Below, in pieces: positions 1 to 24,379 of a DNA stretch of 25,792 bases (position 1 is the stretch's first letter; each line of letters starts with the position of its first letter). The notes beneath the pieces are model-generated. The model saw only the letters and a program-made list of their open reading frames with translations. It was not told the origin of the DNA and ran no database searches. The DNA is from a virus: positions 1 through 25,792 of the IMG/VR virus record IMGVR_UViG_3300025147_000039; one strand, given 5' to 3'. Both the position numbers and the translations under genes were made by a program.

Positions 1-93
1 AGAGAAGCTTGTAAAAACACACGCATAGAGGGCGCGAAAATGTACGTTTATTTCGCGAAACTTCAATTTAGCGAACAAAAAATATATAAAAAA

Positions 94-125
94 ACAAGGT
101 ATAGAATATTACTTCCATACCTTGT
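94..125 (-). terminator. Terminator after small cassette protein, copy 1
   Basis: Arms 94-102 and 117-125 (ACAAGGTAT/ATACCTTGT) form a stem around an AT-rich loop. On the minus strand the stem is followed by a run of T (complement of 87-93). It lies just downstream of the stop at 144 and would end the rep transcript. The same hairpin occurs in copy 2 with a longer perfect stem. Confidence 0.75.
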
Positions 126-143
126 ATATATGTTTATATTTGT

Positions 144-365
144 TTATACTATCTCTGCATATAAAGTGTCGCCAAACATAGGTAGTTTTCCAGCGCCTTC
201 GTCCAAAACCAAATAGTAACCACCATTCCATAATTCATCATACTGGATAGTACCCTTCTCAATATCAGCGCCATACTTCATAGCTATATGAACACCGCAC
301 GATAAGAAGGCGCCACTATCGTCCTTCCACTTTCCATTGTCCTTGTCTCTCAACCATTTTTTCAC
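144..365 (-). CDS. Small conserved replicon-cassette protein, copy 1 (DUF5348-like, tentative)
   Basis: This 73-aa protein of unknown function begins at a GTG (363-365) behind an AAGGAG ribosome site. The perfect DnaA box 366-374 fills the spacer between that site and the start. It is soluble, with no signal peptide or membrane segment. The N-terminus has a W-x-x-D-x-G-K-W pattern, and the C-terminus (NGGYYLVLD, then GKLPMFGDTLYAEIV) is identical or nearly so in the second copy at 24815-25030. From the GKW motif onward about 52 of 63 residues match between copies. The pattern of small size, a central W and YYLV loosely resembles DUF5348 proteins of Bacillota plasmids and phages, but I recognise this only weakly. 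It is the last gene of the rep cassette, beyond the iterons and before a terminator, so a role in replication control or maintenance is plausible but inferred. Confidence 0.7.
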   Translation of the reverse strand: MKKWLRDKDNGKWKDDSGAFLSCGVHIAMKYGADIEKGTIQYDELWNGGYYLVLDEGAGKLPMFGDTLYAEIV

Positions 366-374
366 TTATCCACA
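366..374 (+). promoter_or_regulatory. DnaA box, copy 1
   Basis: TTATCCACA is a perfect match to the DnaA box consensus TTATNCACA. It sits 17 bp from the first iteron, between the ribosome site and start codon of the small cassette gene. The same box in the same place occurs at 25031-25039. Its position beside an iteron array suggests host DnaA helps open the origin, and DnaA bound here could also affect the small gene. Confidence 0.75.
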
Positions 375-391
375 ACTCCTTTTTCTGGAAG

Positions 392-473
392 TGCCAATTT
401 GGCATGTCCGGTGGTGCCAATTTGTCACTTCAGGTGGTGCCAAATTTACACTTCAAGGAATGCCAATTTGGCA
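392..473 (+). repeat. Iteron array 1: four 13-bp repeats at exact 23-bp spacing
   Basis: Four copies start at 392, 415, 438 and 461, exactly 23 bp apart, about two helical turns. The units are TGCCAATTTGGCA (392, 461), TGCCAATTTGTCA (415) and TGCCAAATTTACA (438). The core is nearly palindromic. The array is directly downstream of rep and beside a DnaA box, as expected of the Rep-binding part of a plasmid origin. Copy 2 has the same arrangement with a different core. Confidence 0.88.
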
Positions 474-480
474 CGCTAAC

Positions 481-525
481 TAACCTAATACTAACTAACC
501 TAATAATAGCTAACCTAATTAACTA
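481..525 (+). repeat. Three 15-bp direct repeats (TAACCTAAT core), copy 1
   Basis: TAACCTAAT starts at 481, 496 and 511, giving an exact 15-bp period between the iterons and the rep stop codon. The tract is AT-rich and could be the duplex-unwinding element or a second set of binding sites. Copy 2 keeps the 15-bp spacing but the core reads CCTGAT. Confidence 0.75.
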
Positions 526-544
526 TAGTGTGAGGGAGGGAAAA

Positions 545-1012
545 CTAATTATCCCAACCAAGCAGCTTCTTTTCCAGGTCATCGTAGTCGTATTCACGTT
601 CTACAAAGTCCTTTTTAGGTCTATGCCCTTTCTGCGCGTTCTCCGCCTGTTTAAAGGGTTTCACTGCTGCGTCATACTTTAGCTTTCCTACATATATTAA
701 ATTAGGCTTATTCAGTCCCTGGCGCGTTTCCTTCACCAATTCCACTTCGTTAAGCAAATTCATTGCCCTAACCACTGTTCTTACACTCACTCCAGCGCCT
801 GCGGCCAACTGTTCCCTGGTAAATATCAAATAGACATTTCCCATTTCATCGTACCATTGGTTTTTAACAGAAAGTTGAAGGCGGTCCAGAAGTAAAGCAT
901 AAATTATGCGTGCATCATTAGAAAGGTCCACATAAAGCTTGTTTGTAAATAGTTCTTTTGGTAGAATGAGATAAGAGTATTGACGAATTTCGTTAATGTT
1001 CATATAATTCAA
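545..1012 (-). CDS. Replication initiator, RepA_N-type, allele 1
   Basis: This 155-aa protein matches the RepA_N N-terminal domain of Bacillota plasmid initiators. It has the PKELF segment (18-22), LSNDARIIYALLLDRLQLS (30-48), the VYLIFTRE strand (60-67) and a winged helix-turn-helix with recognition helix about 76-88, then VKETRQGLNKPNLIY (93-107). The C-terminus EYDYDDLEKKLLGW is also typical of the family. Family members are usually about 250-350 aa, so this one keeps only the DNA-binding domain and short tail. The start is a TTG (1010-1012) about 10 nt after GGGG. The next ATG at 1003 is too far from the ribosome site, and allele 2 uses ATG at the equivalent place. An extended -10 promoter lies upstream and iterons lie downstream. 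It should bind the 392-473 iterons and recruit host replication proteins. Compared with allele 2, divergence is concentrated in the recognition helix. Confidence 0.88.
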   Translation of the reverse strand: MNYMNINEIRQYSYLILPKELFTNKLYVDLSNDARIIYALLLDRLQLSVKNQWYDEMGNVYLIFTREQLAAGAGVSVRTVVRAMNLLNEVELVKETRQGLNKPNLIYVGKLKYDAAVKPFKQAENAQKGHRPKKDFVEREYDYDDLEKKLLGWDN

Positions 1013-1053
1013 TAAAAAAACACCCCTTTTGCGTAATAGTTTGGTACAAAACC

Positions 1054-1062
1054 ATTATAGCA
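1054..1062 (-). promoter_or_regulatory. Extended -10 promoter of rep allele 1
   Basis: On the minus strand the sequence reads TGCTATAAT, an extended -10 with a perfect TATAAT (complement of 1054-1059). There is no clear -35. It lies about 45 bp upstream of the rep start. A partly symmetric TTTGGTACAAAACC (1040-1053) covers the likely start of transcription and could be an operator. The same block is in copy 2 at 25700-25708. Confidence 0.65.
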
Positions 1063-1067
1063 AAAGA

Positions 1068-1099
1068 AAAAGGGAAAGGCGATAAAACCTTTCCCTTTT
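1068..1099 (-). terminator. Terminator between the putative DNA-binding gene and rep
   Basis: A perfect 12-bp stem, AAAAGGGAAAGG (1068-1079) with CCTTTCCCTTTT (1088-1099), has an 8-nt loop and a T-rich tail on the minus strand. It would separate the long late transcript from rep, which has its own promoter immediately downstream. The plus strand is also T-rich after the stem, so it may act in both directions. Confidence 0.8.
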
Positions 1100-1113
1100 G
1101 TTTTGTAGTTTTT

Positions 1114-1407
1114 TTACTTTCTAGTAGTAACTGCGGCTGGTTTAACTTCTGGTGTCTTTGCTGCGCTTTTAGTCGGATCAGTTTCCTTCGCAACTTCCTT
1201 CTTCAAACTAGTCTGGTATTCGCTATCCTTCTCAAACACATTCTTCAATGCTTCTCCAACGATATAGTTAACTTTGTCCGCTGGTTTGCCACCAATTCCT
1301 GCAAACTTAGCGTAACTTGTCAACTCCTTCCATACCTCCATATCTAATGATACAGTTTTGTCTACGATACGTACCTTTGTCTCTTTGGGTGCCTTGATAA
1401 TTGCCAT
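1114..1407 (-). CDS. Small putative DNA-binding protein (ribbon-helix-helix-like)
   Basis: This 97-aa protein has a basic N-terminus and a strand-helix-helix pattern: KTVSLDMEVWKELTSYA at 17-33, then VNYIVGEALKNVF at 47-59. A low-complexity K/P/A/T-rich tail follows. The order of a VSLD strand, a W-containing helix and a second helix resembles ribbon-helix-helix regulators and plasmid copy-control or partition proteins, but the match is weak. It has its own good promoter (1440-1468), an AGGAGG ribosome site, and a strong terminator separating it from rep. The last 10 codons and the terminator are duplicated exactly at the right end of the window. A role in repressing rep or in partition is inferred from position. 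It could instead be a late phage protein of unknown function. Confidence 0.7.
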   Translation of the reverse strand: MAIIKAPKETKVRIVDKTVSLDMEVWKELTSYAKFAGIGGKPADKVNYIVGEALKNVFEKDSEYQTSLKKEVAKETDPTKSAAKTPEVKPAAVTTRK

Positions 1408-5871: not shown

Positions 5872-7793
5872 GCTTTCCACCTCCCTGTGGCACTCCAACG
5901 AACAGTTCCAAGTGTTGAAGCAAGTGTAGCCCCTCTTACAAACCTATATCTTGCACTTGTAGAATACATGAAGTCTGTCATCATCCAATTAGAGTCTCCA
6001 CCATTATCAAATAGTGCTATAAAAGAAGGGGGATAGGTGAAGGCAATTGGAAAAGTAAGAGCATATTGACCAGAAATAAACAATGAACCCCATGTACTTG
6101 CTATAGCAACAGTTTTTGCTTCATATCCCCAACATAGTTGAGTACCATCACTATAACGAACATACCAGCCATTTGCGTTTGAACCATAGTCAACCAAAAA
6201 TGCAAATTCTTTACCAGAAACAGATGCACTTTCTCTATATAGAAGTTCTCCACTAAAAGGTTCTTTCCATACTCTTCCAATTTCTACACCAGACCCATCT
6301 CTAAATACTAAGTCTCCTGGGTCATCAGAGCCAGGAACTGCTTGTAGCTCAATATCCTTACCACCAAACATAGTTAATTTCCCATCTACATAAGCGTCTC
6401 CACCTACGTCTAAAGCACCTCTTTCCCAAATTTTACCTGCTGCTATACCTGTCTTACTCCAACTCATAGGTACTGCTTCAGTTCCTACACTAGAAACCAC
6501 CTCAATGCTTCCACCAACCTTATCGCTAATGGTAAGTTTATAGTCATAACTTGAAGTGGTAAGGTTTGATAAATAAGTGAAAACTGGGTTGAAAGTTATT
6601 GTGCCAACTGCCAAAGCGGTTGGACCAGTTCTAGGCGTCCAAGTGGAAGAGGTTTTAAGTTTACTGTGAACGGAGTATGTTAACTGGTTTTTACCATCAA
6701 GGCTGCTAATACTTGAACTACCAGTTGTGTTGATAGTTGTTTGCGTTGTCGCATTTCTTACTGCGGTAAATGTTGCAGAAGGAGAAGTATAAGCATGGAA
6801 AGTAACAGAAACTGTTCTAGCCGTACTTACTCGTCCTCTACTGTCTGTTACGGTAGCGGTTGCAACTACTGCGCCTATTCTATTTACGGCACTTGTCACA
6901 CCGTTCTGGCCGTAATTTACACTATTGAAGTTGATATTGTAACTTGCTATGGTTGAACTTTTAGTACCAGAAGCACCGTTGATAGTAAAGCGTATGCGGC
7001 TTAAACTCTGTGCAAACTGGTTGGTTCCCATTGCAAGTGCAGTAATAGCGCTTGCAGTTTCTGCCGCGGTTACACTTGATAAGGTAGGGATAATATCGCT
7101 ACCTACATAAGCTACTGCGGTGGCGCTGGACTGTCCTATTAAAGTTGTTCCACTGAATGTATTTACATAAGCAGTTACGCTAATAGACGTACCATTTGGC
7201 ACGTGTGCATAAATTGCGTCTAACTGTGCTGCACTGAAAGCGTAACTATCTGCTGATAATTTCCCAGTGTTGTGAATAACGGTTCCACCAATGTATATCT
7301 GATATTCATTAGTGAAAGTTGTACTGTTACGTGCAGCGCTTACTGTTATACCACTTCCAATTGTAAAGTTTGGAAAGCTTGTGATAATACTTGTGCGCGG
7401 TATTGTGTTCAAAGCAAAATTTGTTGTCGTTAACGTAACCGTACCTGTGTAACCACTTGAAAAACTGATACCCATGTACAAACTACCGCCAAGTGAGAAT
7501 GTTTTCTCACCTGCGGAAGAATGTGATACGGTTTTGGAAGTGGTAAATAGTAATTTATCTTCATTACCACTTAAACCAATGGTTACTGTGTCTGTATATG
7601 TTGTTCCATCAAGAATAATGGTTGCCGTTTTGCCAGTACTGGAAACGATATTGTAACCACTTCCTAAGCTTTTTAAATACATTTTCGCAGTAATGGTACT
7701 TGTATTTGCTGCCACATTCTGCGTGGCGGTCCATTCTATTCTTAATTGGTAACCTGTTCTAAAATTATTGGTTATTACTCCACTTAGTGCCAT
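5868..7793 (-). CDS. Siphophage minor tail/baseplate protein (DUF859-like)
   Basis: This 641-aa protein is mostly beta-structured and rich in S, T, G and A. It matches DUF859 proteins from streptococcal and other Bacillota siphophages: a repeated Ig-like body (about 1-440), then the marker SWSKTGIAAGKIWERGALDV and a GGDAYVDGKL motif (about 450-480). The C-terminal ~110 residues (GWYVRYSDGTQLCWG, later FPIAFTYPPSFIALFD) look like the fibre-tip domain found on many phage receptor-binding proteins. It shares one base with the end of the Tal gene. It is probably part of the tail tip and may touch the host surface. Confidence 0.82.
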   Translation of the reverse strand: MALSGVITNNFRTGYQLRIEWTATQNVAANTSTITAKMYLKSLGSGYNIVSSTGKTATIILDGTTYTDTVTIGLSGNEDKLLFTTSKTVSHSSAGEKTFSLGGSLYMGISFSSGYTGTVTLTTTNFALNTIPRTSIITSFPNFTIGSGITVSAARNSTTFTNEYQIYIGGTVIHNTGKLSADSYAFSAAQLDAIYAHVPNGTSISVTAYVNTFSGTTLIGQSSATAVAYVGSDIIPTLSSVTAAETASAITALAMGTNQFAQSLSRIRFTINGASGTKSSTIASYNINFNSVNYGQNGVTSAVNRIGAVVATATVTDSRGRVSTARTVSVTFHAYTSPSATFTAVRNATTQTTINTTGSSSISSLDGKNQLTYSVHSKLKTSSTWTPRTGPTALAVGTITFNPVFTYLSNLTTSSYDYKLTISDKVGGSIEVVSSVGTEAVPMSWSKTGIAAGKIWERGALDVGGDAYVDGKLTMFGGKDIELQAVPGSDDPGDLVFRDGSGVEIGRVWKEPFSGELLYRESASVSGKEFAFLVDYGSNANGWYVRYSDGTQLCWGYEAKTVAIASTWGSLFISGQYALTFPIAFTYPPSFIALFDNGGDSNWMMTDFMYSTSARYRFVRGATLASTLGTVRWSATGRWKA

Positions 7794-10700
7794 TAGTTAT
7801 CCTCACCTACCCATCGTATAATTGTTATGTTTGCGTCATGCTTTGTAAGTTCATGTACGCCTATTTTTATTTTTTCTGTAATATTAGCTTTGGTAATATT
7901 TAATTCATTACCACTTACATAAGCTACCTTTGTTGTACCGTTTAGGAACTGTAATTCTTCGTTAGTGATATTAACTTTTAAGCTACTATCGCTTTGTCCT
8001 ATCAGCAAGCCGCTAGCACTAAAGTCCATATAGTTCTCAATTACTTCATAGTCAGCGGTTGCGTTGTCCGCAGTAGTTTGTGCAGTAGATATACTTGTTC
8101 TAATACTCGTTAGACTTTGTTCTATCATGCTACCTACTGTTGTTGCGTCCACCTTACCAGAAAGTAAGCTATTCATAGCATCACTGTTGATAATACTGTT
8201 TCTAAGTGTGCCATTAGTAATACTTGTTTCAATATCCAACACTGTTCCTGCAAGTACTCCACCAGCCTGTGCGTCATAAGCACCTATGTCGTCAGCAGTA
8301 GTGGCGCCAATTGGGAACCAGTCGTCTACAACCCATCTTCTAGGAATATTAGGTTCTACGCTGGTGTCTATCCATATAAGGTTGTTAAACTTAATGGAAG
8401 GTTCTGTGTCGCTCTTTATCCAAGCGTCTTCCTTCTTTACTGCGATACTGTCTATATAAGCATTAGCTGCATCTTCTGCATCTTGTGCGGCTGCATCTGC
8501 GTAAGCTTTGGCAGTAACTAGTTTAGCGTTTACGTCTGTTATACGCGCTGCTTCTTCAGCAGTTACAATTCCATCTGCATAAGCTTCTGCTAGAACACGT
8601 TTGGCTTCTGCCACTGTGTCTGCATAACTCTGTGCAGTGGTTTTAGCGTTATTAGCAGCAGTGGTAGCATATGTCTGTGCGCTTGCAAGTGCAGCACTGG
8701 CTTGTGTTTCTGCGTATGTCTTAGCAGTAGCCAATTTGGCATTTACATCTGCTATTCTTGCAGTTTCCTCTGCATCTACTATTCCATCTGCGTAAGCTTC
8801 AGCTATGATACGTTCGGCTTCAGCTTTAGTAGCTGCGTAACTTTCTGCCGCAGTTCTTGCATTAGTTGCTGCGGTTGCTGCATATGCTTGTGCTGCGGTT
8901 TGTGCTGCGGTTGCTTTTGTAGAAGCGTCTGTAGCTGCGGTTACTAAAGCCGCATTAACTGCTGCAATTCTGGCTGCTTCTTCATCGTCTACTATTCCAT
9001 CAGCATAAGCTTCTGCTATAACGCGTTCTGCTTCAGCTTTAGCAGTAGCGAAGGCTTCAGCCGCCACTTGTGCATCACTGGCTTTATCTTCTGCATAAGC
9101 CTGTGCGATACCCAAATTAGTGTTGGCGGTTGTATCGTCTGTGTACTTGCTGGCTTTTATCCAGTCAGAAGCGTTGTAAGTTCCTGTTACTCTGTTGATA
9201 TTTGAACGCATAATGTCTCCACCAGTACCTTGAACCCATAAGTCTCCAATGTTGTAAGGTGGAACTGGCTGCGCTATAAATACTCGTCTTTTCGCGTCTG
9301 CGGTATCTTGTGCTTTAGCTGCGTCTGATAGTGCTTTAGTTACATCACTGTCGGTTAGACGCTGCCAACTGTATACACCTGTTAGTACCTGCCAACGGTA
9401 GGCATAACCTGTGAAAGTGTCATAATACAAGTCACCTAAATGGATATTCTTTGTATCTACATCTGTCCAATTAGCAGTTGGTTCATTAGTTAAAAGTGGC
9501 GCCACATTGTAAAACCAAGTGGTAATACTACCATCAATTTGGCCTTGTAGAGCATCAATGTCGTTAATTACTGTGTCTGCAAACGTATTAAGTTGCGTAT
9601 CAGCATAACTTTTAGCTGCATTTTCTGATGTAGCGATAGCATCTGCCACTGTTGTAGTGGAGTTAAGTTTCAAAGTGAAACCATCAGCGTCCAACTTCAT
9701 CATATTGCCTAAGTTGAAATACCCACTGTTAAGGTCGATATAAGAAAGGTTGTTTGTACTCTTTAAAATACCTGTGGCAATTCTGGCCGCACTCATACTA
9801 CCTGTGGTAATAAAGTTAGCGTTAATACTACCGTTAGCTAGAATAGCTAATTCGTAGTTACCACTGTAACCTGTTGAAGAATGTCCTAGTCCGTTTATAT
9901 TCCATCTCCACACGTTCTGTGCGGTAGAAATGTCCATTGTGTCCATTATTAGCATTTCATATGGCTGGTCGGTTTCGTTGTAACGAATTACTACATTACC
10001 ACCATTACCTGCTTTGATAAGTTCGGTAGCGTTAACTATCTCTACCATCAATTCAGTTTGTATTCTGATAAGGTCGCCACTTACTGCATCACGTATGGCC
10101 GCACCGTTATCCTGGAAGACAATGTGTTTGTTAGCTAATTGAATAACATTGCGTTCTGGTTGGATAGGGTAGTCGGTTAGTTTAACAATACGGTGGCTTT
10201 CCTGCCATGAGTTTTCTTTGTCAATAATGCGCACCACGTCACCTAACCCAAAGGTTAGAATGGTGTATTCTGGTTTAAGTTTAGCTAGTTCAAGCACGTC
10301 TACACTGTAGCTACGTCTTGGTTTTGCCATCTGTGATAACTTAGCGGTAGCATCTGCAAGTAAGCTTTCTTTCACTGTGTAGCGGTCGTCTGTCCATATT
10401 TCTTCTATAATTTTGTTACTATGCTCGAAGTTTTCAACGTATTCTTTGCCGCTATTTATATCAGCAAACGTTAGGTTGTCTTTACCATAAGCATAAAGCC
10501 TAGTAGCAAAGTCGTAGGTGTCACTCTGGAAGTCCAGGCGTCTAATGTTAAGGTCTGTATAAACATAGGCACCTCTATCACTACCAAGCAACTGTTTGAC
10601 TCTTACAACCTTGTTTAAGGTATCAAACTCCACTTCAAAACCGTATGTGTTCATGGCCTTAACAATTAAAGCAAAAGCATTAATGTTCTCTTCACGAAGG

Positions 10701-11074
10701 GTGCGGTTTTTCGCTGGAATGTCAACTAGGCTATACGTCCAACCTACTGGTAATATCTCATTAAGAACGAAGCTTATGTCACGTTCAACGCTTTCATAAC
10801 TACGTATCTTTGTTGCTTTCAATTCATCTACATCTAGCTTTCCAAATACCTCTACAAAGTCTTTGGAAGGATAGTTAATTTCTTTAATTACAAACCTGTT
10901 GTCTATCGTCTGTAAGTATAGTTCCTGTTCAATGTCCTTTACACTTGCGTCTGTTCTAGGCACCAGGAAGTGTATAATTTTGTCCGCAGTTTCCAGGTCG
11001 CTTTCTATGTAGTATTCCTTCACCTGTGTAATAAGGTGAAGGGTTTGTTTTGTACTATTAAGTAGTTTTATCAA
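7793..11074 (-). CDS. Tail-associated lysin/tail endopeptidase-type protein (Tal)
   Basis: This 1093-aa protein's first ~350 residues match the N-terminal region of phage minor structural proteins (Prophage_tail, gp27/gp44-like baseplate hub). Markers are IIHFLVPRTDA near 32 and the segments around VFGKLDVDELKATKIRS and FGLGDVVRI. The protein forms the ring below Dit that closes the tail tube and opens at infection. Residues ~330-480 carry a carbohydrate-module-like stretch. Residues ~660-900 contain three 71-aa Ala-rich helical repeats, each with an AYADGIVxxEE motif, then a YIDSIAVKKEDAWI segment. No catalytic peptidase motif is obvious. The order tape measure, Dit, Tal supports the call. 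Confidence 0.87.
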   Translation of the reverse strand: MIKLLNSTKQTLHLITQVKEYYIESDLETADKIIHFLVPRTDASVKDIEQELYLQTIDNRFVIKEINYPSKDFVEVFGKLDVDELKATKIRSYESVERDISFVLNEILPVGWTYSLVDIPAKNRTLREENINAFALIVKAMNTYGFEVEFDTLNKVVRVKQLLGSDRGAYVYTDLNIRRLDFQSDTYDFATRLYAYGKDNLTFADINSGKEYVENFEHSNKIIEEIWTDDRYTVKESLLADATAKLSQMAKPRRSYSVDVLELAKLKPEYTILTFGLGDVVRIIDKENSWQESHRIVKLTDYPIQPERNVIQLANKHIVFQDNGAAIRDAVSGDLIRIQTELMVEIVNATELIKAGNGGNVVIRYNETDQPYEMLIMDTMDISTAQNVWRWNINGLGHSSTGYSGNYELAILANGSINANFITTGSMSAARIATGILKSTNNLSYIDLNSGYFNLGNMMKLDADGFTLKLNSTTTVADAIATSENAAKSYADTQLNTFADTVINDIDALQGQIDGSITTWFYNVAPLLTNEPTANWTDVDTKNIHLGDLYYDTFTGYAYRWQVLTGVYSWQRLTDSDVTKALSDAAKAQDTADAKRRVFIAQPVPPYNIGDLWVQGTGGDIMRSNINRVTGTYNASDWIKASKYTDDTTANTNLGIAQAYAEDKASDAQVAAEAFATAKAEAERVIAEAYADGIVDDEEAARIAAVNAALVTAATDASTKATAAQTAAQAYAATAATNARTAAESYAATKAEAERIIAEAYADGIVDAEETARIADVNAKLATAKTYAETQASAALASAQTYATTAANNAKTTAQSYADTVAEAKRVLAEAYADGIVTAEEAARITDVNAKLVTAKAYADAAAQDAEDAANAYIDSIAVKKEDAWIKSDTEPSIKFNNLIWIDTSVEPNIPRRWVVDDWFPIGATTADDIGAYDAQAGGVLAGTVLDIETSITNGTLRNSIINSDAMNSLLSGKVDATTVGSMIEQSLTSIRTSISTAQTTADNATADYEVIENYMDFSASGLLIGQSDSSLKVNITNEELQFLNGTTKVAYVSGNELNITKANITEKIKIGVHELTKHDANITIIRWVGEDN
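8460..9110 (-). repeat. Three 71-aa (213-bp) repeats in the Tal gene
   Basis: The codons for the ADGIV motif lie at about 8568, 8781 and 8994, exactly 213 bp apart. Each unit encodes A/K/E-rich helix, AEAYADGIV, a D/E-rich turn resembling a loose EF-hand loop, then AARI or TARI, then NAxL. The repeat boundaries are approximate. Confidence 0.8.
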
Positions 11075-11088
11075 ACCCTTAACCTCCT

Positions 11089-11787
11089 TTAGTTAAATTG
11101 TGGGAAGTAGTTTATAGTCACGTTAGCCGCAGTTGAAGAGAAGCCTACAGTAGTTTGTCCTATAGCTAATTTTGGAAACTCAAAGCTTGAAAAGTTTGCT
11201 ATGTCGTTGTCTGCGTTCTTTGTGTATTTAAAGTTGTAACCATCTACTGTATAAGTGTTCCCCACTAATAGGTTCTTTAGAACTAAAGGTTCTTTTGTAA
11301 GTCCTGTTATAGTGTAAGTAACAAGGTTACCAGTTGGAACAATTACCAATTTGATAGGTGTTTCTACGCTGCCTGCATTGGTTATGCTCTTCGCACTAAG
11401 TGCGTTGGCTGCAACCGCCACTTCTGGTAGGTAGGTTCTTCTTACAAGCAAACTTACGCTTATTTTAAACTTACCATTGGTAAGCTTTTCCATAGCTGCT
11501 GCCCCTTCCATGTGTGCGTCATAAAGATGTGTTATGTCGTCAAACTTGAATGTTGCCATCTTCAAATGTCTTACCAGGGTGTCCATGTTATTAAACATAG
11601 CTTCATCGCTGGCGGCTTCAAGTAAAAATACTAGTTCCATGTTTTTGTATCTGTCATAGCTACGAAGGAACAAAGGAGAAGGAGAACCTTCAAGCCATTC
11701 ATTCACATTGATAACCTCATGGTTAGTGAAGTTACGGTCAATGAGTGTAGCACCCATAGTTGTTATATTAATGTTATTTATTACCAT
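11089..11787 (-). CDS. Distal tail protein (Dit, Sipho_tail)
   Basis: This 232-aa protein has the Sipho_tail layout. The N-terminal half forms the ring domain (GATLIDRNFTNHEVINV; MELVFLLEAASDEAMFNN; LVRHLKMATFKFDDI), with a typical FKISVSLLVRRTYLPEV segment near 105-125. The C-terminal half is a beta-sandwich (about 130-232). Dit hexamers connect the tail tube to the baseplate hub. It lies between the tape measure and Tal genes, as in TP901-1- and SPP1-like phages. Confidence 0.88.
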   Translation of the reverse strand: MVINNINITTMGATLIDRNFTNHEVINVNEWLEGSPSPLFLRSYDRYKNMELVFLLEAASDEAMFNNMDTLVRHLKMATFKFDDITHLYDAHMEGAAAMEKLTNGKFKISVSLLVRRTYLPEVAVAANALSAKSITNAGSVETPIKLVIVPTGNLVTYTITGLTKEPLVLKNLLVGNTYTVDGYNFKYTKNADNDIANFSSFEFPKLAIGQTTVGFSSTAANVTINYFPQFN

Positions 11788-11798
11788 GTTCTCCCTCC

Positions 11799-13805
11799 TT
11801 ATGTTGTTCTTCTAGTTGCCATAGCAAACTTGTTCATAAAGTAGTCCATATCGTCCTTATCTCTAAAGCTATAGTCACCGTTAAGGTTAATAGTCAATGC
11901 TTTATTGTCGTTACTACCTAGTCCAAGCATCTGCTTCAAGTCGCTTAAAGGTGCCACCACTTCTGGTGAACTGCCAAAGCCATTAGAAGCGTCTCCTACT
12001 CCGTTCTCTCCTAGTATTGCTGGTTTCTTGAATATCGCACCACGTGCGTTCCATGAAACTGCCATCTTAGGCACTGAAGGTGGAACTAGACTAAAACTAC
12101 CTGTTAATGAGAACTTAGGCATTTTGAGTTTAGGCCATTCCCACTTGAAGTTGAAGAAGCCTTTTATCTTGTTTATTGCCTTCTCTACAACGTCTCTAGC
12201 TGCTTCTATCTTGTCTTTAATACCATCGTATATATCTTTGAAGTAGCCTGTTACGTTGGTTACTGTAGTGCCAATACCGTCAAAGAAACCTTTGATACCT
12301 GCTATTACGGTAGAAACCGTTTCTAGTGCTGCATCCATCTTGCTCTCAATAGCAGTTGCTATCTTACCAAACCATTCAAATACCCAACCAACAATAGGTC
12401 CTATCCATTGTGTCCACTTATCTGCTACCCATTTAACATAGGCACCAATAAGGTCAAACACTGGTTTTAAAACATTGTTGTAAGCTTTGTCTACTCGTTC
12501 TGTCATACGCTCAAAGAATGCTTGTATCTGTGGCATATTCTCTTTGAACTTCTCCATTACTGCTTTCACAAGAGTAATAATAACGTCAAACACTGGTTTA
12601 AGAACAGTTTCGTATACCTGTTTAATTATCTTAAATGCTATTTCCACTACTTTCTGAATATAAGGGAACGCTATTTTGAAAATGTCCCACACTACGCCTA
12701 CAACGTCCATGATGGCTTCAAATGCTGGTTTCAATGTGTCTTTCCATACCTGTGATATGAACTCGAATACATTGCCAGCCATTTCCTTCATCTTAGGCAT
12801 ATTGTCCACGAAGAATGCTACTACTTCTCCAACTACGTCTCTAATGCGGTTGAATATAGCCACTGCGGTTTCTTGTATTAAAGGCCAATTATCTACGAAG
12901 AACGCAACAACCTGTGCTGCTATCTCTTTGATACGGTCAATAATTCCGCCACCTTCAGTGAATTTGCTCCAGTCAAGGGTTTTTACCTTGTCGGTAAGCC
13001 ATTGAACCGCAGCTATTAAACTCTTCATAATGGTAACAACTACTGATAGAATAGGTGCTCCAATAGTCGCTAAGAACCTACCCCACGTAGCTTTCAAGTT
13101 ACCCATTACGTTCTCATAATTTTCACTCTCACGTGCGGCTTGTCCCATCGCACCATTCATTTCATATGTTTTGCCAACTGTGTCAAGTAGTAACCATTGG
13201 CGTTCATCTTCTGAAAGGTCCTGCCAACTCTTTCCATACATTTCATTGGACTTAATGTCCATCTGTTTAGCGTTTGTAAATACACCAATAGCATCACCAG
13301 CCGCAAAGTTACCTTTCATAAAGCTAGCTAAACTACCGCTTGTAGTCTCAAGGCTTTGGTCGTAGAAAGCTGCCGCATCTGCTGCAAGGGAAGTTGCCTT
13401 CTCTGTAGCACTCATGGCTTGTTCTGCTTCCATACCAGCACCTTTAAACTGTCCTCCAAAGCTATTCCATGACTTAGTTAACCTGTCACCATGTATACCA
13501 AGTTCTTCACTTTGTTTGTTTATACGTTCAAGTGCTTTTTCGCCCTCTGTGCCTTTGAATATCTGGTCGAATTGTGCGTCCATAGCTTGTAAGTCTGCGG
13601 TAGTGGTAACTATTTTCTTACCAAATTCGATAATAGCTTTAACTGCAAAAGCTGCAACAATTACTTTACCAATTTTCTTCAAACCACCAGCTAGTCCATC
13701 ACCTTTCTGTTTGATACCATCCATTTGGCCTTTAACGTCATTCATACCTTTTTTCATGTCGCTTATATCGGCCAGTATCTTAATTTTTAGGGTTTCTTCA
13801 TTCAT
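11799..13805 (-). CDS. Tail tape measure protein
   Basis: This 668-aa protein is largely alpha-helical. It begins with a coiled-coil head (ISDMKKGMNDVKGQMDGI), then a hydrophobic segment (KVIVAAFAVKAIIEFG, about 47-63) and another near 255-270 (ILSVVVTIMKSLIAAVQWL). The middle holds many W- and F-containing helical units. Its length sets tail length: at about 0.15 nm per residue it predicts a tail of roughly 100 nm. Its start overlaps the GT reading frame by four bases (ATGA), the usual arrangement for the tape measure after the tail chaperones. Confidence 0.92.
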   Translation of the reverse strand: MNEETLKIKILADISDMKKGMNDVKGQMDGIKQKGDGLAGGLKKIGKVIVAAFAVKAIIEFGKKIVTTTADLQAMDAQFDQIFKGTEGEKALERINKQSEELGIHGDRLTKSWNSFGGQFKGAGMEAEQAMSATEKATSLAADAAAFYDQSLETTSGSLASFMKGNFAAGDAIGVFTNAKQMDIKSNEMYGKSWQDLSEDERQWLLLDTVGKTYEMNGAMGQAARESENYENVMGNLKATWGRFLATIGAPILSVVVTIMKSLIAAVQWLTDKVKTLDWSKFTEGGGIIDRIKEIAAQVVAFFVDNWPLIQETAVAIFNRIRDVVGEVVAFFVDNMPKMKEMAGNVFEFISQVWKDTLKPAFEAIMDVVGVVWDIFKIAFPYIQKVVEIAFKIIKQVYETVLKPVFDVIITLVKAVMEKFKENMPQIQAFFERMTERVDKAYNNVLKPVFDLIGAYVKWVADKWTQWIGPIVGWVFEWFGKIATAIESKMDAALETVSTVIAGIKGFFDGIGTTVTNVTGYFKDIYDGIKDKIEAARDVVEKAINKIKGFFNFKWEWPKLKMPKFSLTGSFSLVPPSVPKMAVSWNARGAIFKKPAILGENGVGDASNGFGSSPEVVAPLSDLKQMLGLGSNDNKALTINLNGDYSFRDKDDMDYFMNKFAMATRRTT

Positions 13806-14107
13806 GTTTGTCCTTCACCTTCTTTCTGAAATATGTTTAGAAGGTTCTTAAATTCGGCTTGCTTCTGTTCTATAGAAACAAATTCCTTCTTTGTCTTAAC
13901 CGCCTTCGTTTCAAATGGGTTGTGTGGTTTAAACTGTTTACCACCAAAGAACCTGCCTATGGAATTTGTCATAGCAGTTTGTGATAGAAAGAAATTACGT
14001 TCTTCCTGTTCTTTGAAACCTTGAATAGCTAACTCCATTTCTCTAGGCGTAGACGAATAAAAGGCGGTGGGACTAATATTTAGTTTTCCCACCGCCACTT
14101 TAAACAT
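13802..14107 (-). CDS. Tail assembly chaperone T segment, expressed by -1 frameshift
   Basis: This 101-aa frame (YSSTPREMELAIQGF near 18-32) resembles the downstream T part of GT tail chaperones. It is probably not made mainly from its own ATG. The frame stays open upstream of that ATG to a slippery heptamer at 14158-14164 inside the end of gene G. A -1 shift there would fuse 106 residues of G, 17 linker residues and these 101 residues into a 224-aa GT protein. GT would load onto the tape measure and recruit tail-tube subunits. No convincing ribosome site precedes the ATG at 14107, which supports frameshift expression. Confidence 0.8.
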   Translation of the reverse strand: MFKVAVGKLNISPTAFYSSTPREMELAIQGFKEQEERNFFLSQTAMTNSIGRFFGGKQFKPHNPFETKAVKTKKEFVSIEQKQAEFKNLLNIFQKEGEGQT

Positions 14108-14110
14108 ATC

Positions 14111-14127
14111 TTCAACATATTGTTGAA
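14111..14127 (-). other. Stem-loop downstream of the G/GT slippery site
   Basis: TTCAACA (14111-14117) and TGTTGAA (14121-14127) form a perfect 7-bp stem with a 3-nt loop. It starts 30 bases downstream of the slippery site, farther than the usual 5-9 nt spacer, so its role in frameshifting is uncertain. Confidence 0.4.
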
Positions 14128-14151
14128 AAGTATAACTTCCAGAAGAAGGGT

Positions 14152-14475
14152 TTAAGCGTTTGGGGAAGTATTCTCTTCTTTCTTCATACCTAACGCTTGT
14201 GTAAGTTCCTCAAGGAAAGCAGCGGAAATGTCCATAATGCTCATTCCACCCTCTATAAGCTGGTCGATGATAACGCCTGCTTTTTCTTCACTCATTTCAT
14301 GTTGTTTGGCCTTTAAGCCATAGAAAATTATTCTTCTTAGTGCGGTTAAGCTAACGCCCTCTTCGTTGTCAAATAGGTCGGTAAAAGGTTTACCTGTCGC
14401 CTTCTCAAGTTCCACTAAACTGTTGATACTGTAATGGACTATGTAGTCCACTCCATTCGCTTTAACTATCTTCAT
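14152..14475 (-). CDS. Tail assembly chaperone G
   Basis: This 107-aa protein begins KIVKANGVDYIVHYSINSLV and has an acidic helical C-terminus, as in phage tail tube chaperones of the lambda G / GTA gp10 kind. It prevents the tail-tube protein from polymerising early. It lies between the major tail protein and tape measure genes. The last codons (TCC CCA AAC GCT TAA) contain the slippery heptamer CCCAAAC in the correct frame, so a fraction of ribosomes should shift into the 13802-14107 frame. Confidence 0.85.
   Translation of the reverse strand: MKIVKANGVDYIVHYSINSLVELEKATGKPFTDLFDNEEGVSLTALRRIIFYGLKAKQHEMSEEKAGVIIDQLIEGGMSIMDISAAFLEELTQALGMKKEENTSPNA
14158..14164 (-). promoter_or_regulatory. 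Programmed -1 frameshift site (C CCA AAC)
   Basis: The heptamer C CCA AAC fits X XXY YYZ with zero-frame codons CCA and AAC, two codons before the G stop. After the shift, reading continues CGC TTA AAC with no stop for 17 codons, then enters the 13802-14107 frame. This is the conserved phage G/GT arrangement; lambda uses G GGA AAG. Confidence 0.85.
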
Positions 14476-14497
14476 CTGTTATACCTCTCTTTCATTA

Positions 14498-14905
14498 TTA
14501 CGCCTTAACTAAGGCTCCTGTTCCTGTAAAGGAAACTGCATAAGTTGCTACATCGTCATAAGGTGCTTCGATAGGGAAGTCTGTCATAATAGCCATACCG
14601 CTATATACCAATTCTGTTCCTTTAGCTATCTGAATTTCTACTTCGTCTCCTGCTTCAAAAGCAGCTTCAAGTGCTAGGAATGCCGCATCGTCTAGTGCGA
14701 ATAAACCATCGCAGTCGATACTCCATTCTTTGAAGCCAGTAATAGAACGTTTCCAACTACCGCTAACTTTATTAGTAACGTCAATTGACTCCGCACTTCT
14801 GTTAAGAGTTGCCCCTCTCTGTCCGCCTACTGCGGTGAATACTGGTAATTCTACAGTTCCTGTGTTAACAGAAACGAGAATATCAATACCTCTAATTTCT
14901 TCCAT
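14498..14905 (-). CDS. Major tail (tube) protein
   Basis: This 135-aa protein has the TP901-1-type tail tube pattern: IDILVSVNTGT at the start, VGGQRGATLNRSAESIDVT (about 26-44), then GSWKRSITGFKEWSIDCDG. The C-terminal strand is YAVSFTGTGAL. The SAESIDVTNK and W-S-I-D-C-D-G stretches are characteristic of the family (Phage_tail_2). It polymerises around the tape measure to form the tail tube. It lies between the tail terminator gene and the G/GT genes. Confidence 0.92.
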   Translation of the reverse strand: MEEIRGIDILVSVNTGTVELPVFTAVGGQRGATLNRSAESIDVTNKVSGSWKRSITGFKEWSIDCDGLFALDDAAFLALEAAFEAGDEVEIQIAKGTELVYSGMAIMTDFPIEAPYDDVATYAVSFTGTGALVKA

Positions 14906-14910
14906 GTGTT

Positions 14911-15267
14911 TTACCTGCCTTTATAATTTTTTAGTTGTAACATCAGCACTCCATGTGTTACGCCTAGTTGTTTCTCATTTAGAATACGCATAGAAAACCT
15001 AATTCCTACTGCGTCAAGTGCTGCTAACTGTGTCTTTATCTGTTCTACGTATGTCAAGGCGTTTGTCTTACCTTTATCCTGTGTGAAAACATGAATGTCG
15101 ATATAAACGTCCTGCAACGTGTCCAGTTTGTAGAATGTATCATCAACTGAAAGGTCGCTAATTACAATGTAAGGGAATGGTATATCCACTACCCAATAGT
15201 CGTAAGTATCAACGTTCGTTGCCATACACGCGTCATAAACTGCTTTTCTAATGTCATTAATTACCAT
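14911..15267 (-). CDS. Tail completion/terminator protein (DUF3168-like)
   Basis: This 118-aa protein begins VINDIRKAVYDACMA and continues PFPYIVISDLSVDD, then a strand pair DVYIDIHVFTQDKGKTNALT. This is the fold pattern of tail-terminator proteins (DUF3168, SPP1 gp17-like). It would cap the finished tail tube and join it to the head. It lies between the HK97 gp10-like and major tail genes. Its start overlaps the gp10-like gene by 11 bases. Confidence 0.82.
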   Translation of the reverse strand: MVINDIRKAVYDACMATNVDTYDYWVVDIPFPYIVISDLSVDDTFYKLDTLQDVYIDIHVFTQDKGKTNALTYVEQIKTQLAALDAVGIRFSMRILNEKQLGVTHGVLMLQLKNYKGR

Positions 15268-15601
15268 ATTGTTTCCACACCGCCTTCAATACATTCTTTG
15301 CTTGTCGTTGTGCGTCTCTAACTGCTGGTCGTAGATAAGGTTGTGCAGCTTGTGAAGTTGTCCCATACTCAAGGTGCGGTGCATACTCCAATGCACTTCC
15401 AATTTCTGCACTGTTGCCATCTACTTCCAATGTTATAGACTGTTTCAATGCTCCAGTATCAACTGGTGCATTACTTCTAGCACTCTTATGTGCTATTACT
15501 CCCAGGTTCTTCACTATCTCATTAGCCATCGGTTCTGAATTTGCGGCAATAGCAGCAATACGTTTTTCCAAACTAGTGCTATCAACGGTTATTTTGAACA
15601 T
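15257..15601 (-). CDS. HK97 gp10-like head-tail joining protein
   Basis: This protein is about 114 aa. It has the family pattern ANEIVKNLGVIAHKSARSNA followed by PVDTGALKQSI, then EYAPHLEYGT and QPYLRPAV. PVDTGALKQSI and EYGTTSQAAQPYLRPA are hallmarks of the HK97-gp10_like family involved in connecting tail to head. I chose the ATG at 15599-15601, with GAGG seven bases upstream, over an upstream start at 15628. That longer start would overlap the preceding gene and adds residues not seen in the family. Confidence 0.88.
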   Translation of the reverse strand: MFKITVDSTSLEKRIAAIAANSEPMANEIVKNLGVIAHKSARSNAPVDTGALKQSITLEVDGNSAEIGSALEYAPHLEYGTTSQAAQPYLRPAVRDAQRQAKNVLKAVWKQYGN

Positions 15602-15603
15602 AC

Positions 15604-15906
15604 CTAAACCTCGTGTCCAACAAAGCACTTAAAGTGGTTTGTACGATACTCAATTTCTCTTATCAACTGATATTCAGCGCCACCGTACTGTATAACGCTA
15701 CCTACCCCTACCTCACCATCGTTATCAACGATAATGGTAATAGTGCGGTAAAACCCTAGGCCAGAAGGCAAAGGTTTCAGGTCATTAGAACCTGTGCTAA
15801 CAGTGGCACGAATATCTACAGTTGAAGTGGTAAGTTCTTCTTTTCCGCCATATTCATCTATGATGGTAGAGGTCTGGAATTTAGTTACACTACTATCCAG
15901 TCTCAT
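15604..15906 (-). CDS. Head closure / head-tail joining protein
   Basis: The chosen start gives 100 aa beginning MRLDSSVTKFQTSTIIDEYG, the usual beginning for head-closure proteins (SPP1 gp16-like, phage head-tail joining). A beta-rich body follows (STVDIRATVSTG, YRTITIIVDNDGEVGVGSVI, AEYQLIREIEYRTNHF). It would plug or seal the connector after DNA packaging. The frame is open to an ATG at 15981, but that overlaps the upstream gene by 74 bases. The ATG at 15906 follows the upstream stop by one base and has an AGG ribosome site. Confidence 0.82.
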   Translation of the reverse strand: MRLDSSVTKFQTSTIIDEYGGKEELTTSTVDIRATVSTGSNDLKPLPSGLGFYRTITIIVDNDGEVGVGSVIQYGGAEYQLIREIEYRTNHFKCFVGHEV

Positions 15907-15907
15907 G

Positions 15908-16225
15908 TTATATAAACCTAAACTTACCGCTAGAGGTGTTAAGGTAGTGCGTAATTGCGTAAGTGTAAGGTGCCAATTCATCTATTGATGTATCGTATGT
16001 ACGACTAATACCTTCTACGCTTTCTGCACTAAGTCCTTCACTCCCTAGCTTGTTGTAAGCTTGTATAACTAATTCAATAAGGATATATTCCAGTGAAGTG
16101 GGAATGGTAGAGGCCCTTAAAGCAGCTTGGAGTTTGCCGCTTTTTAAACCAATAAGAGTGTTTAGAAGGGTGTCGCTTTCTGTATCACTGATATTCAGTA
16201 ATATCTTAATTTTCTCTAACACCAT
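15908..16225 (-). CDS. Head-tail connector protein (QLRG / gp6-like)
   Basis: This 105-aa helical protein has the family pattern KILLNISDTESDTLLNTLI, ALRASTIPTSLEYILIELVI and YNKLGSEGLSAESVEGISRT. The NKLGSEG and SVEG stretches are typical of phage connector gp6 / SPP1 gp15 proteins. It forms the adaptor ring under the portal. It lies directly downstream of the major capsid gene, as usual. Confidence 0.87.
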   Translation of the reverse strand: MVLEKIKILLNISDTESDTLLNTLIGLKSGKLQAALRASTIPTSLEYILIELVIQAYNKLGSEGLSAESVEGISRTYDTSIDELAPYTYAITHYLNTSSGKFRFI

Positions 16226-16243
16226 CTTCTAACCTCCCTACGC

Positions 16244-17035
16244 CTATGCTAAGGCTTCTGTAATTTTAACTACTTTAGTAGCATCAGTAAGGGCAACAAG
16301 TGCAACCTTTCTCATAACTACTGTGTTTTCTCTTGTCTCAATGTCTCTGTCCTGTTCTACTTCAGAGTCTTTCTTAACGAATAGGGAAATTGCGCCTTTT
16401 TCCATTAAGTAAGCTTCGCCTTCTGGAACAAGTTTAGAAATAACTACTGGAACTCCAGCGATAGAACCAATTTGTCCATTGTATAGAATGTCTCCTGCTC
16501 TTGAAGCTTTGAAGTCTACGTCTTTTCTAATAGCAGTTCTTAGGTCAACACCCATGATAAGAACCAGGTTGCTTTCCTCTTCTACGTTAAGTACGTCTAA
16601 AGCATCTACAACTGCGTTGTAGTCAAAGTCTGCACCTAAAGCGTAAGTAGCTGATAAAGTAGCTTTAGCTAATTCAGCGAAGAACTTGTCGTTCATATCG
16701 TTAACCATTGTTTGACTTGCACCCTTGATAGCCATGTCAAGAATTTTGTCATCTATCATTACCTGTTCGTCAAAGTACTCGAATGTTTGCTGATGCACGC
16801 CTACCTCGTATTCAACTGGTGCGAAAGTAACTGTACCTTTAACTGTGTTAGCTTCACCCATTGCAAGTGCTTCAACTGCACCTTCGTAGTTGTAAACGTT
16901 GATAATTTTCTTCATTCCAGGTCCCTGTGATAAAGAACTGTCAACGGTCATAAGGCTTCTTGTGTTTAGTTTGGTTTCTAGTAAGTCGTTTAGTTTGCTC
17001 TCTAGAATAAAGTTTTCATATGTTTGATGTGCCAT
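16244..17035 (-). CDS. Major capsid protein (HK97 fold)
   Basis: This 263-aa protein has features of a Bacillota siphophage coat protein: an N-terminal helix, the E-loop region (MKKIINVYNYEGAVEALAMG), ANTVKGTVTFAPVEYEV, IGSIAGVPVVISKLVPEG and YLMEKGAISLFVKKDSEVEQ. The GVPVVISK and late DRDIETRENTVV segments are conserved among such coats. No proteolytic prodomain is evident, fitting a separate scaffold gene upstream. The start is ATG with GGAG upstream. The mRNA just before it can form a large hairpin (17083-17205) and a small one (17056-17068). Confidence 0.92.
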   Translation of the reverse strand: MAHQTYENFILESKLNDLLETKLNTRSLMTVDSSLSQGPGMKKIINVYNYEGAVEALAMGEANTVKGTVTFAPVEYEVGVHQQTFEYFDEQVMIDDKILDMAIKGASQTMVNDMNDKFFAELAKATLSATYALGADFDYNAVVDALDVLNVEEESNLVLIMGVDLRTAIRKDVDFKASRAGDILYNGQIGSIAGVPVVISKLVPEGEAYLMEKGAISLFVKKDSEVEQDRDIETRENTVVMRKVALVALTDATKVVKITEALA

Positions 17036-17055
17036 AATGTTTTATCTCCTTTATA

Positions 17056-17068
17056 GCGGTTATACCGC
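17056..17068 (-). other. Small hairpin before the capsid ribosome site
   Basis: GCGGT-TAT-ACCGC is a perfect 5-bp stem with a 3-nt loop, six bases upstream of the capsid gene's GGAG. It could shield the 5' end of a processed capsid mRNA. Confidence 0.6.
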
Positions 17069-17082
17069 GTTGTTATTTTTTT

Positions 17083-17205
17083 AAGGTAGTGTAAGTGGTG
17101 GTTTTCTCTGCTTTCCCTCAACAAGAAGTTTTCTTATAATATAGTGAGTGTTGTAGCAATGTTGGGGAAACAGAGAGCAACTTCACACTAGCAACTTCGT
17201 ACCTT
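17083..17205 (-). other. Long imperfect hairpin between scaffold and capsid genes
   Basis: Nested complementary arms run AAGGTA (17083-17088)/TACCTT (17200-17205), AGTGTAAGT/ACTTCACACT, CTCTG (17106-17110)/CAGAG (17171-17175), TTTCCC (17112-17117)/GGGAAA (17165-17170) and CAACA (17119-17123)/TGTTG (17160-17164). A smaller stem, AAGAA/TTCTT, lies near the centre. It fills the whole gap from the scaffold stop. There is no T-run at the base in the direction of transcription, so it is not a normal terminator. RNA processing, stability, or a partial block of read-through are possible roles. Confidence 0.7.
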
Positions 17206-17810
17206 TAACCGTTAAGCTGCTTGTAAAGTGTTGGGTTAGTGCGGTAAAGTTCTGCGCGTTCTGCGATAGATAAAGTTTTGAATTTATCTTTATCAAGTCC
17301 TGCTTGGTTTACAGAAGCTTTTGGTTTGGAAGTGTTAATACGTTTCTCCACTTCTTCATTTACCATTCCTAGTACCAACTGTTCTAGGGTTGTAATTTTC
17401 TGTTCAACTATTTCCATATCATCGTCATAAACGAAGTCTGTAAGAACGCTTGAAAGTTTCTTCTCCTGTAGTTTGTTGCCAATTTCAACTTTACGTATCA
17501 TGCTTTGGTATTGTTTTTCTTTTTCGTCAAGCATCTTGAACTTTTGTTCAAGGTCAAGTTGTTTTAGTTGGTCAGGAGACATTTGCGCTCTTTTCTCATA
17601 GTCTTTAAGGTGGCTATCCATCTTGTTACCAATTTCGCTTTCCCACGTTTTCTTTGCTTTTGTTAAAGCTGAAGTTACTCGCTTGTCTGTCTCTTTTTGA
17701 AGCATGGCGGCTAACTCTTCTTTAGTAAGTGTTAAAGTTTCTTTGGTTTCATTAGTTTCGTCTACCCCTGTGTTTTGTTCCATGTTTGGGTTGGTATTTG
17801 TTGTTTCCAT
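17205..17810 (-). CDS. Capsid scaffold protein (DUF4355-like)
   Basis: This 201-aa, very charged protein is Q/E/K-rich and predicted to be coiled coil over most of its length (about 30-165). It has the family pattern LTKEELAAMLQKETDKRVTS, then KYEKRAQMSPD-like and EKEKQYQSMIRK segments, and a short C-terminal helical hook (DKFKTLSIAERAELYRTNPT) that would bind the coat protein. It guides capsid assembly and is then removed. It lies between the minor head and capsid genes. The ATG has AAGGAG eight bases upstream. Confidence 0.87.
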   Translation of the reverse strand: METTNTNPNMEQNTGVDETNETKETLTLTKEELAAMLQKETDKRVTSALTKAKKTWESEIGNKMDSHLKDYEKRAQMSPDQLKQLDLEQKFKMLDEKEKQYQSMIRKVEIGNKLQEKKLSSVLTDFVYDDDMEIVEQKITTLEQLVLGMVNEEVEKRINTSKPKASVNQAGLDKDKFKTLSIAERAELYRTNPTLYKQLNG

Positions 17811-17829
17811 TGTTTTTACTCCTTCTGCC

Positions 17830-17854
17830 CTTTAAGTTGCGTTGCCCCTTAAAG
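17830..17854 (-). other. Stem-loop between minor head and scaffold genes
   Basis: CTTTAAG (17830-17836) and CTTAAAG (17848-17854) form a 7-bp stem with an 11-nt loop in the short gap before the scaffold gene. There is no clear U-run; this may modulate expression across the junction. Confidence 0.45.
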
Positions 17855-17855
17855 T

Positions 17856-18800
17856 TCATAGTTTATATTTTTTTTTAAATTGCTCGAATGTCATGTTGCC
17901 ATCTATCTTCATTGGTTTGCCAAAACCATCTCGTCCATATTTGTAAGGTGGCTTCCAGTCAAGTATGTCAACTGGTTCTATGGTAGAACGACAATTAGGG
18001 TGAAGAGGTGGCGCGTTTAAGCCAACCTGCATGGCGGAAAAGTTAAATTTACGGTCGTCCATTTGACCGCACCTTTCGCTTGTTCTGCTATCGAAGGTGG
18101 CGTTGTAGCGGTATTCAGTGAAGCCTAATTCTGTGAAAGAAGCTTTATCACTTTCCGCTATAATGGCCGTTGTCTCTGTGCGCAATATACGCTGCGCGTT
18201 ATAGTAGCTATTAGAAGTAGCGTTACGGAGCAAATACGCAGTTGTGCGTGGGTTTTGTCCAGTAGTGATACTTTCTTCTATAAGGGTGCGCAGTTTAGTT
18301 CTTAGCAGCGTTTTATCACGCCATATACGGTCTGAAAACTCACGTCCATCTTTGGCCCAAGCAGTGTGTATTACCTGGGAAAGACGTTTAGGTTCTAAGT
18401 GGGCAAAAGCCAGTTCATAACCTAGTCCTTTCTGTACTTCATAAAACATTTCATAATAGTTTGCTTTGTATATGTTTATCAGGGTGCGGTCCATCAACTG
18501 AAGTTCCGTTTTTGCCAGGTTGCTTGTTAGCTTATCCAGTTTTTCCATCAGTGCCTGCGAACGTCCCAAACGCCCAGAGAAGGAAGGGTTATAAAACATA
18601 TCCATCTCAAGCTTGTTAAAGTCCACAATACCGTTCTTGGTATAAGGCTTCAGCATGGCGGTGTAGTCGTCCAATACTGTGTGGTAGAAAGCGTTGTATT
18701 TATCAAACATGATGCTCTCAACGTCTTCTACGTAGCGGAAACGTGTTTTCATTCGTTGTTCCCAATATTCTTTGTTTGGAAGATAGCTATAACTGTTCAT
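17856..18800 (-). CDS. Minor head protein (SPP1 gp7 / Mu F type)
   Basis: This protein is about 314 aa. The C-terminal part holds the Phage_Mu_F pattern: NAQRILRTETTAIIAESD, FTEYRYNATFDSRTSERC, then MDDRKF and LNAPPLHPNCRSTIEPV. The Cys and His in TSERC and PPLHPNCR are conserved. Members bind the portal and DNA inside the capsid. I chose the ATG at 18798-18800. The frame also opens at TTG 18809, but that start lies almost on the ribosome site. The gene overlaps the end of portal by 14 bases. Confidence 0.87.
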   Translation of the reverse strand: MNSYSYLPNKEYWEQRMKTRFRYVEDVESIMFDKYNAFYHTVLDDYTAMLKPYTKNGIVDFNKLEMDMFYNPSFSGRLGRSQALMEKLDKLTSNLAKTELQLMDRTLINIYKANYYEMFYEVQKGLGYELAFAHLEPKRLSQVIHTAWAKDGREFSDRIWRDKTLLRTKLRTLIEESITTGQNPRTTAYLLRNATSNSYYNAQRILRTETTAIIAESDKASFTELGFTEYRYNATFDSRTSERCGQMDDRKFNFSAMQVGLNAPPLHPNCRSTIEPVDILDWKPPYKYGRDGFGKPMKIDGNMTFEQFKKKYKL

Positions 18801-20136: not shown

Positions 20137-20161
20137 TTAGTTTTCACCTTCTTTTTTTTAT

Positions 20162-21806: not shown

Positions 21807-21822
21807 CGCGTTCACCTCCTTT

Positions 21823-21942: not shown

Positions 21943-22047
21943 ATTAGCTAAACCCCTCTCTTTAATTTATTTAGGTTGTGGCCAGAGTGCGTTTTCATTC
22001 TCAAAAAGCTCTTCATTAGCGTGGGGAATGTGTCCTTCCAGCCACTC

Positions 22048-22533: not shown

Positions 22534-22560
22534 ATTAAGTTTTCCTCCTAAATAGTTTTA

Positions 22561-22767: not shown

Positions 22768-22781
22768 TGTTTTCTTCCTCC

Positions 22782-23471: not shown

Positions 23472-23507
23472 TGTTCATTGCTCCTTTTGTTTGGCGTTGT
23501 GGTTGGC

Positions 23508-23687: not shown

Positions 23688-23698
23688 GTTGTTTCCTC

Positions 23699-24373: not shown

Positions 24374-24379
24374 ACCTAT

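Follow-up and report, generated by a model that had tools for sequence, protein, structure and literature searches.

Does the stretch of DNA analysed here (25,792 bp, listed as linear in the IMG/VR virus database and referred to below as the window) represent one phage with two replicons, or two phage variants with different replicons at the same locus? An earlier sequence-only reading had noticed the same replicon module at both ends and had allowed for either. We favour two variants over a single element carrying both, because the end overlap has the size of an assembler k-mer, a loop of 24,646 bp can be closed and a related contig, G001, has a single cassette. The record is probably a lariat assembled from the short reads of a small circular siphophage that occurs as two sub-populations. 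It would be composed of a closed loop with replicon allele 2 and of a rarer variant with allele 1, the cassette having been exchanged by homologous recombination.

Two replicon modules between matching flanks

The presence of the same module at the two ends of the window was confirmed, with a RepA_N rep gene, repeats, iterons, a DnaA box, a small gene and a terminator at each. On the minus strand the module is ordered as a 97-aa gene, a terminator, a rep promoter with an extended -10 element, rep, 15-bp repeats, four iterons, a DnaA box, the small gene and a second terminator. The rep gene of allele 1 (545-1012, minus strand) encodes an initiator of 155 aa (Pfam PF06970, 9e-21), and that of allele 2 (25215-25661, minus strand) an initiator of 148 aa (PF06970, 3e-23). 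Both proteins pass the PF06970 cutoff and so possess the domain that characterizes RepA_N replicons; the RepA_N relatives matched in the PDB are 4pta, 4pt7 and 4pql.

The outer flanks are identical as had been claimed, 45-115 to 24716-24786 and 1020-1146 to 25666-25792. Between these near-identical flanks the parts that determine specificity have indeed diverged, the two Reps being 65% identical (dN 0.29, dS 1.42). The terminator that follows the small gene lies at 94-125 in allele 1 (minus strand, fold z = -4.1) and at 24765-24796 in allele 2 (minus strand, terminator prediction). The links of cassette 1 to the backbone extend over 127 bp at one flank and over the terminator region at the other, and no further.

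The further cassette alleles that the first reading had suggested seeking in relatives were not found among viral contigs. We compared rep allele 1, an alignment of the two Reps, an alignment of the small proteins, the 97-aa protein and two flank sequences with these contigs, and the only other carrier of the module is G001 (IMGVR_UViG_3300010331_000049). Allele 1 is present in no other viral record searched, and no close backbone besides G001 was found in the viral collection.

End overlap and the proposed loop and branch

The exact match at the right end begins at 1020/25666, where the preceding base differs (A versus T, 1019|1020), and extends for 127 bp to the last base of the window. JGI assemblies are made by metaSPAdes with k up to 127 and by MEGAHIT with k up to 123 (PMC6243002). 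Since the match runs out with the final base of the record and has the length k, it marks a closed loop that re-enters the sequence at position 1020. Thus the identity of this flank is exact, but its length is that of an assembler k-mer to the last base and not that of a biological repeat. The window can be divided into a branch with replicon allele 1 outside the loop, probably a minor variant (1-1019, minus strand), a 24,646-bp loop that represents a complete circular phage genome with allele 2 (1020-25665), and the overlap (25666-25792), which repeats 1020-1146 and closes the loop onto it (k = 127 in the JGI metaSPAdes settings, PMC6243002).

The G001 contig matches window positions 6307-25788 with 100% identity over 19,482 bp, contains cassette 2 only, and ends exactly 123 bp beyond the same fork (1020/25666). 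Its other end, at window position 6307, falls inside the gene of a 641-aa tail protein. The end overlaps of the window (127) and of G001 (123) equal the top k of the two JGI recipes, and therefore we read the window as a lariat; the same values point to metaSPAdes and MEGAHIT as the respective assemblers. Among the complete relatives, the terminal direct repeats are exactly 127 bp in G007 and G009 and 107 bp in two others, from one metagenome, and the likeliest reading is that they are k-mer overlaps left by circular contigs. A loop with cassette 2 and a branch with cassette 1 would be the simplest graph, and at the fork the path leading into the shared sequence divides between the two cassettes.

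A single molecule with both replicons, arisen by tandem duplication or as a cointegrate dimer of two sister phages, is distinctly unlikely. The record as printed does contain both cassettes, and two initiator genes occur in 11% of staphylococcal theta plasmids (PMC5703833); moreover, a heterodimer with both alleles would produce almost the same k-mers as a mixture of two variants, which counts against the lariat reading. However, the end overlap equals k, G001 has one cassette, and the loop alone is already as large as the complete relatives, its 24,646 bp falling in the size range of four of them (24.6-26.7 kb less the end overlap). A dimer would also be expected to show equal depth and left rejoining for both cassettes, whereas only cassette 2 rejoins. 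That only this cassette closes onto the loop speaks for unequal abundance of the two.

The identity of branch 1 to allele 2 breaks at 1019|1020, and its left end has only 15 bp in common with 24641-24655. The point where it fails to rejoin the loop lies beside two hairpins predicted by folding to the left of the cassette (24534-24593 and 24616-24637, within 24534-24640), as would be expected of a rare variant, and we assume that the branch does rejoin the loop. The first hairpin is strongly folded (z = -7.6); the second is GC-rich and does not exceed shuffled sequences. The segment 24534-24593 is also a long, AT-rich, near-perfect palindrome located between a GIY-YIG nuclease gene and the replicon.

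Cassette 1 could instead derive from another phage or from a plasmid with only this locus in common, the assembler having walked from that element into the present phage. Linkage past position 1146 depends on the single outgoing path taken by the assembler, and the lack of allele 1 from all other viral records searched would also agree with a foreign origin. On the other hand, both flanks match, one over 127 bp and the other over 71 bp as well as over the 3' part of the small gene, which places both cassettes at the same locus; a second outgoing branch is not visible, and no plasmid in PLSDB carries a relative of the small gene. We judge this origin to be improbable, to much the same degree as the single molecule.

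Under the two-variant reading, the abundant variant, with replicon allele 2, would be the closed loop of 24,646 bp, its relative abundance being deduced from the graph, and the rarer variant would carry allele 1 at the same locus, with its replicon region alone assembled separately. More generally, a fork in a de Bruijn graph can make two variants resemble one genome with two replicons, which should be suspected when the ends of a contig overlap by exactly k.

The probable exchanged block and its presumed origin specificity

The small gene encodes 73 aa in allele 1 (144-365, minus strand) and 71 aa in allele 2 (24815-25030, minus strand), and the two products are 79% identical; their structure model is too poor for use (pLDDT 52). 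The boundary of the exchange lies inside this gene. The identity profile is flat at 100% to position 1021, falls at once to ∼65% across rep and the origin, and climbs back to 92-100% within the small gene. Among codons of unchanged residues, 11 of 29 differ in the first 45 codons of the gene versus 1 of 27 in the remaining codons (Fisher p = 0.0025), and the partly non-coding 127-bp flank has no changes between its two copies. A synonymous step inside one gene, opposite 127 unchanged bases, is a mark of recombination. This supports the earlier proposal that the pattern originated by homologous exchange of a replicon cassette, and the identity break within the small gene fits an exchange of Rep together with its origin, with recombination as the presumed cause. 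The exchanged block would cover about 200-1019 in allele 1 versus 24870-25665 in allele 2, and would include rep, the 15-bp repeats, the iterons, the DnaA box and roughly two thirds of the small gene. The cassette was probably replaced by recombination between the identical flanks, which are the rep control region on one side and the 3' half of the small gene with its terminator on the other.

It is very improbable that no exchange occurred and that the center diverged in place under fast diversifying selection while the flanks were conserved. The differences are concentrated in the specificity parts and the recognition helix of Rep is variable, as such selection would predict. Protein-level selection, however, makes no synonymous step of the kind seen here, where dS of rep is about 1.4 and the 11 of 29 synonymous differences in the 5' part of the small gene face 0-1 in its 3' part and none in the 127-bp flank.

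The window contains three perfect DnaA boxes versus 0.24 expected, and all three lie inside the cassettes. One box with the sequence TTATCCACA is found in each allele (366-374 and 25031-25039, plus strand, exact matches), and another exact match is present in allele 2 only, directly behind rep (25205-25213, minus strand). Each module had been described as having four iterons and three 15-bp repeats. This holds for cassette 1, where repeat analysis places four iterons with an exact 23-bp spacing and the core GCCAAATTGGC at 383-473 (minus strand) and three 15-bp repeats, a possible unwinding element, at 476-520 (minus strand). In cassette 2 one of the four iterons (25055-25138, minus strand, core GCAAAATTTGC) is degenerate, and only two copies of the 15-bp repeat are clear (25150-25179, minus strand). 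The iteron origin typically lies within the rep coding sequence in RepA_N plasmids; here the iterons are located behind the rep stop codon in both alleles.

The iterons are palindromes, and the letters of their outer half-sites differ symmetrically between the alleles (GCCAAATTGGC for allele 1, GCAAAATTTGC for allele 2). In the recognition helix of Rep (residues 77-86 of the structure model) only 2 of 10 residues are kept and 8 differ between the alleles. Overall the model is poor (pLDDT 52), and nothing but helix positions in its core (67-77) was taken from it. The strand region that follows the helix (residues 91-105) is identical at 15 of 15 positions. Over the whole helix-turn-helix region 15 of 30 residues are identical versus 81 of 118 elsewhere, an enrichment of differences that is suggestive only (p = 0.085). 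Because the iterons differ symmetrically and the recognition helix differs at 8 of 10 residues, the origin specificity has probably been switched between the alleles. Each winged-helix RepA_N initiator would then bind its own palindromic iterons and, together with host DnaA, open the neighboring repeats.

The shared rep control region (1020-1113, minus strand) comprises the terminator of the upstream gene (hairpin 1068-1099), an extended -10 element TGCTATAAT, a palindrome-like sequence GTTTTGTACCAAAC and a ribosome-binding site, the promoter having been read by eye. The 97-aa gene directly upstream of rep (1114-1407, minus strand) is an open reading frame that had no match in the family searches; its last 33 bases lie within the shared k-mer. 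Staphylococcal RepA_N replicons control rep by an antisense RNA. A candidate promoter antisense to the rep leader, TTGACG-17-TATAAT, is present at the start of rep in allele 1 (980-1008, plus strand, 11/12), and a second one occupies the same place in allele 2 (25629-25657, plus strand, 10/12). Both are consensus matches only and overlap coding sequence, and coding constraint may explain them instead. No Rfam RNA and no tRNA were matched in the window. The rep promoter, leader and upstream hairpin fall outside the exchanged block; if an antisense RNA controls rep, the variants would share this control, which could keep them incompatible despite their different iterons, in contrast to the escape from incompatibility that the first reading had thought possible.

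The phage backbone and known replicon swaps

Outside the cassettes the window encodes a compact siphophage, with genes for the terminase (TerS, TerL), portal, a Mu-F-like head protein, scaffold, capsid, tail, tape measure, a collagen-like protein, holin and amidase. Within the gene of a 1093-aa tail protein there are three direct repeats (8511-9037) with 213-bp spacing that are 73-76% alike. A full set of structural and lysis genes is thus combined with a plasmid-type initiator and an iteron origin, as in phage-plasmids. No integrase was found among the main open reading frames scanned in the window, and ParA/ParB and toxin-antitoxin genes, the partition and maintenance functions of phage-plasmids, had no match among the window reading frames scanned. 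A phage-plasmid is therefore taken as the likely life style, judged from gene content, and not as proven membership. The nearest complete relatives, G006 and G007, resemble this phage in TerL (53-54% identical), structural gene order and genome size. In both, a gene for a tyrosine integrase (L034 258-1397; L040 15408-16688) separates the lysis from the terminase genes, at the place taken here by the replicon, and a switch from integration to independent replication can reasonably be proposed.

Both Reps end in a short tail with the motif EREYDYDDLE..LLGW, and in RepA_N replicons the C-terminal domain is host-genus specific. Clostridia contigs encode, beside mobilisation-like genes, short RepA_N proteins whose tail is related, which suggests a Clostridia-type host and, with the above, a probable phage-plasmid of Clostridia-like Bacillota. 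The motif EREYDYDDLE..LL is likewise found at the end of a 221-aa protein of phage G011 (L042 1137-1802, minus strand) that is unrelated in all other respects, and it may be a common replisome-recruiting peptide.

About 0.5 kb from the replicon lies the GIY-YIG nuclease gene (23699-24295, minus strand; PF01541, 3e-7). The N-terminal domain of its product is shared with a neighboring 229-aa protein (22782-23471, minus strand; 40% over 48 aa) and is absent from Rep. The same early region contains two small genes with weak DUF5659 matches (22561-22767 and 23508-23687). Free-standing homing-type nucleases next to an exchange boundary have precedents (PMC10448857).

The window probably samples a natural population of a phage-plasmid-like virus in which one locus, flanked by identical sequence, has two alleles of a matched initiator and origin. 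With pairs of this kind it can be tested whether replicon swapping alters the incompatibility of plasmids or the resistance of phages to nucleases directed at the origin. It can be speculated, although we consider it unlikely, that selection keeps the replicon locus polymorphic, with identical backbones and matched Rep-origin alleles that allow cell sharing through compatibility or escape from origin-aimed nucleases, the GIY-YIG nuclease perhaps aiding exchange.

Divergent initiators and origins between near-identical flanks are also the pattern of replicon module swaps in the staphylococcal RepA_N plasmids pPR9 and pSK41 and in the PLE satellites of Vibrio cholerae. The RepA_N theta plasmids of Bacillota have the same winged-helix initiator type (PF06970 and the PDB entries above), but the pSK41 Rep has 319 aa versus 148-155 aa here, and their iterons lie inside rep. 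pPR9 and pSK41 likewise share a near-identical backbone in which a short stretch with the DNA-binding part of the initiator and the origin is replaced; their rep control region is 99% conserved, and the plasmids were found to be compatible by experiment (PMC5703833). There the N-terminus of Rep alone was replaced, by a non-RepA_N helix-turn-helix (PMC5703833). Here the exchange takes in the whole short rep, the origin and part of the small gene, both alleles belong to RepA_N and a phage is the carrier. In PLE, a RepA_N domain and an iteron origin are exchanged as a matched pair; these domains bind iterons, covary with the origins and have cognate specificity by experiment, and the selection for swapping was attributed to the phage nuclease Odn (PMC8263062). 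An Odn-like RepA_N nuclease was not found in the window, and the GIY-YIG gene was rejected as a candidate, having no similarity to Rep. PLE also differs from this phage in being an integrating satellite of a Gram-negative host with a conserved Rep C-terminal domain (PMC8263062). By analogy with PLE and pPR9/pSK41, and from the sequences and the Rep model, the two initiators are each expected to be specific to their own iterons and to travel together with them. Replicon swaps are already known from plasmids and phage satellites, and the present case adds a natural example in a phage.
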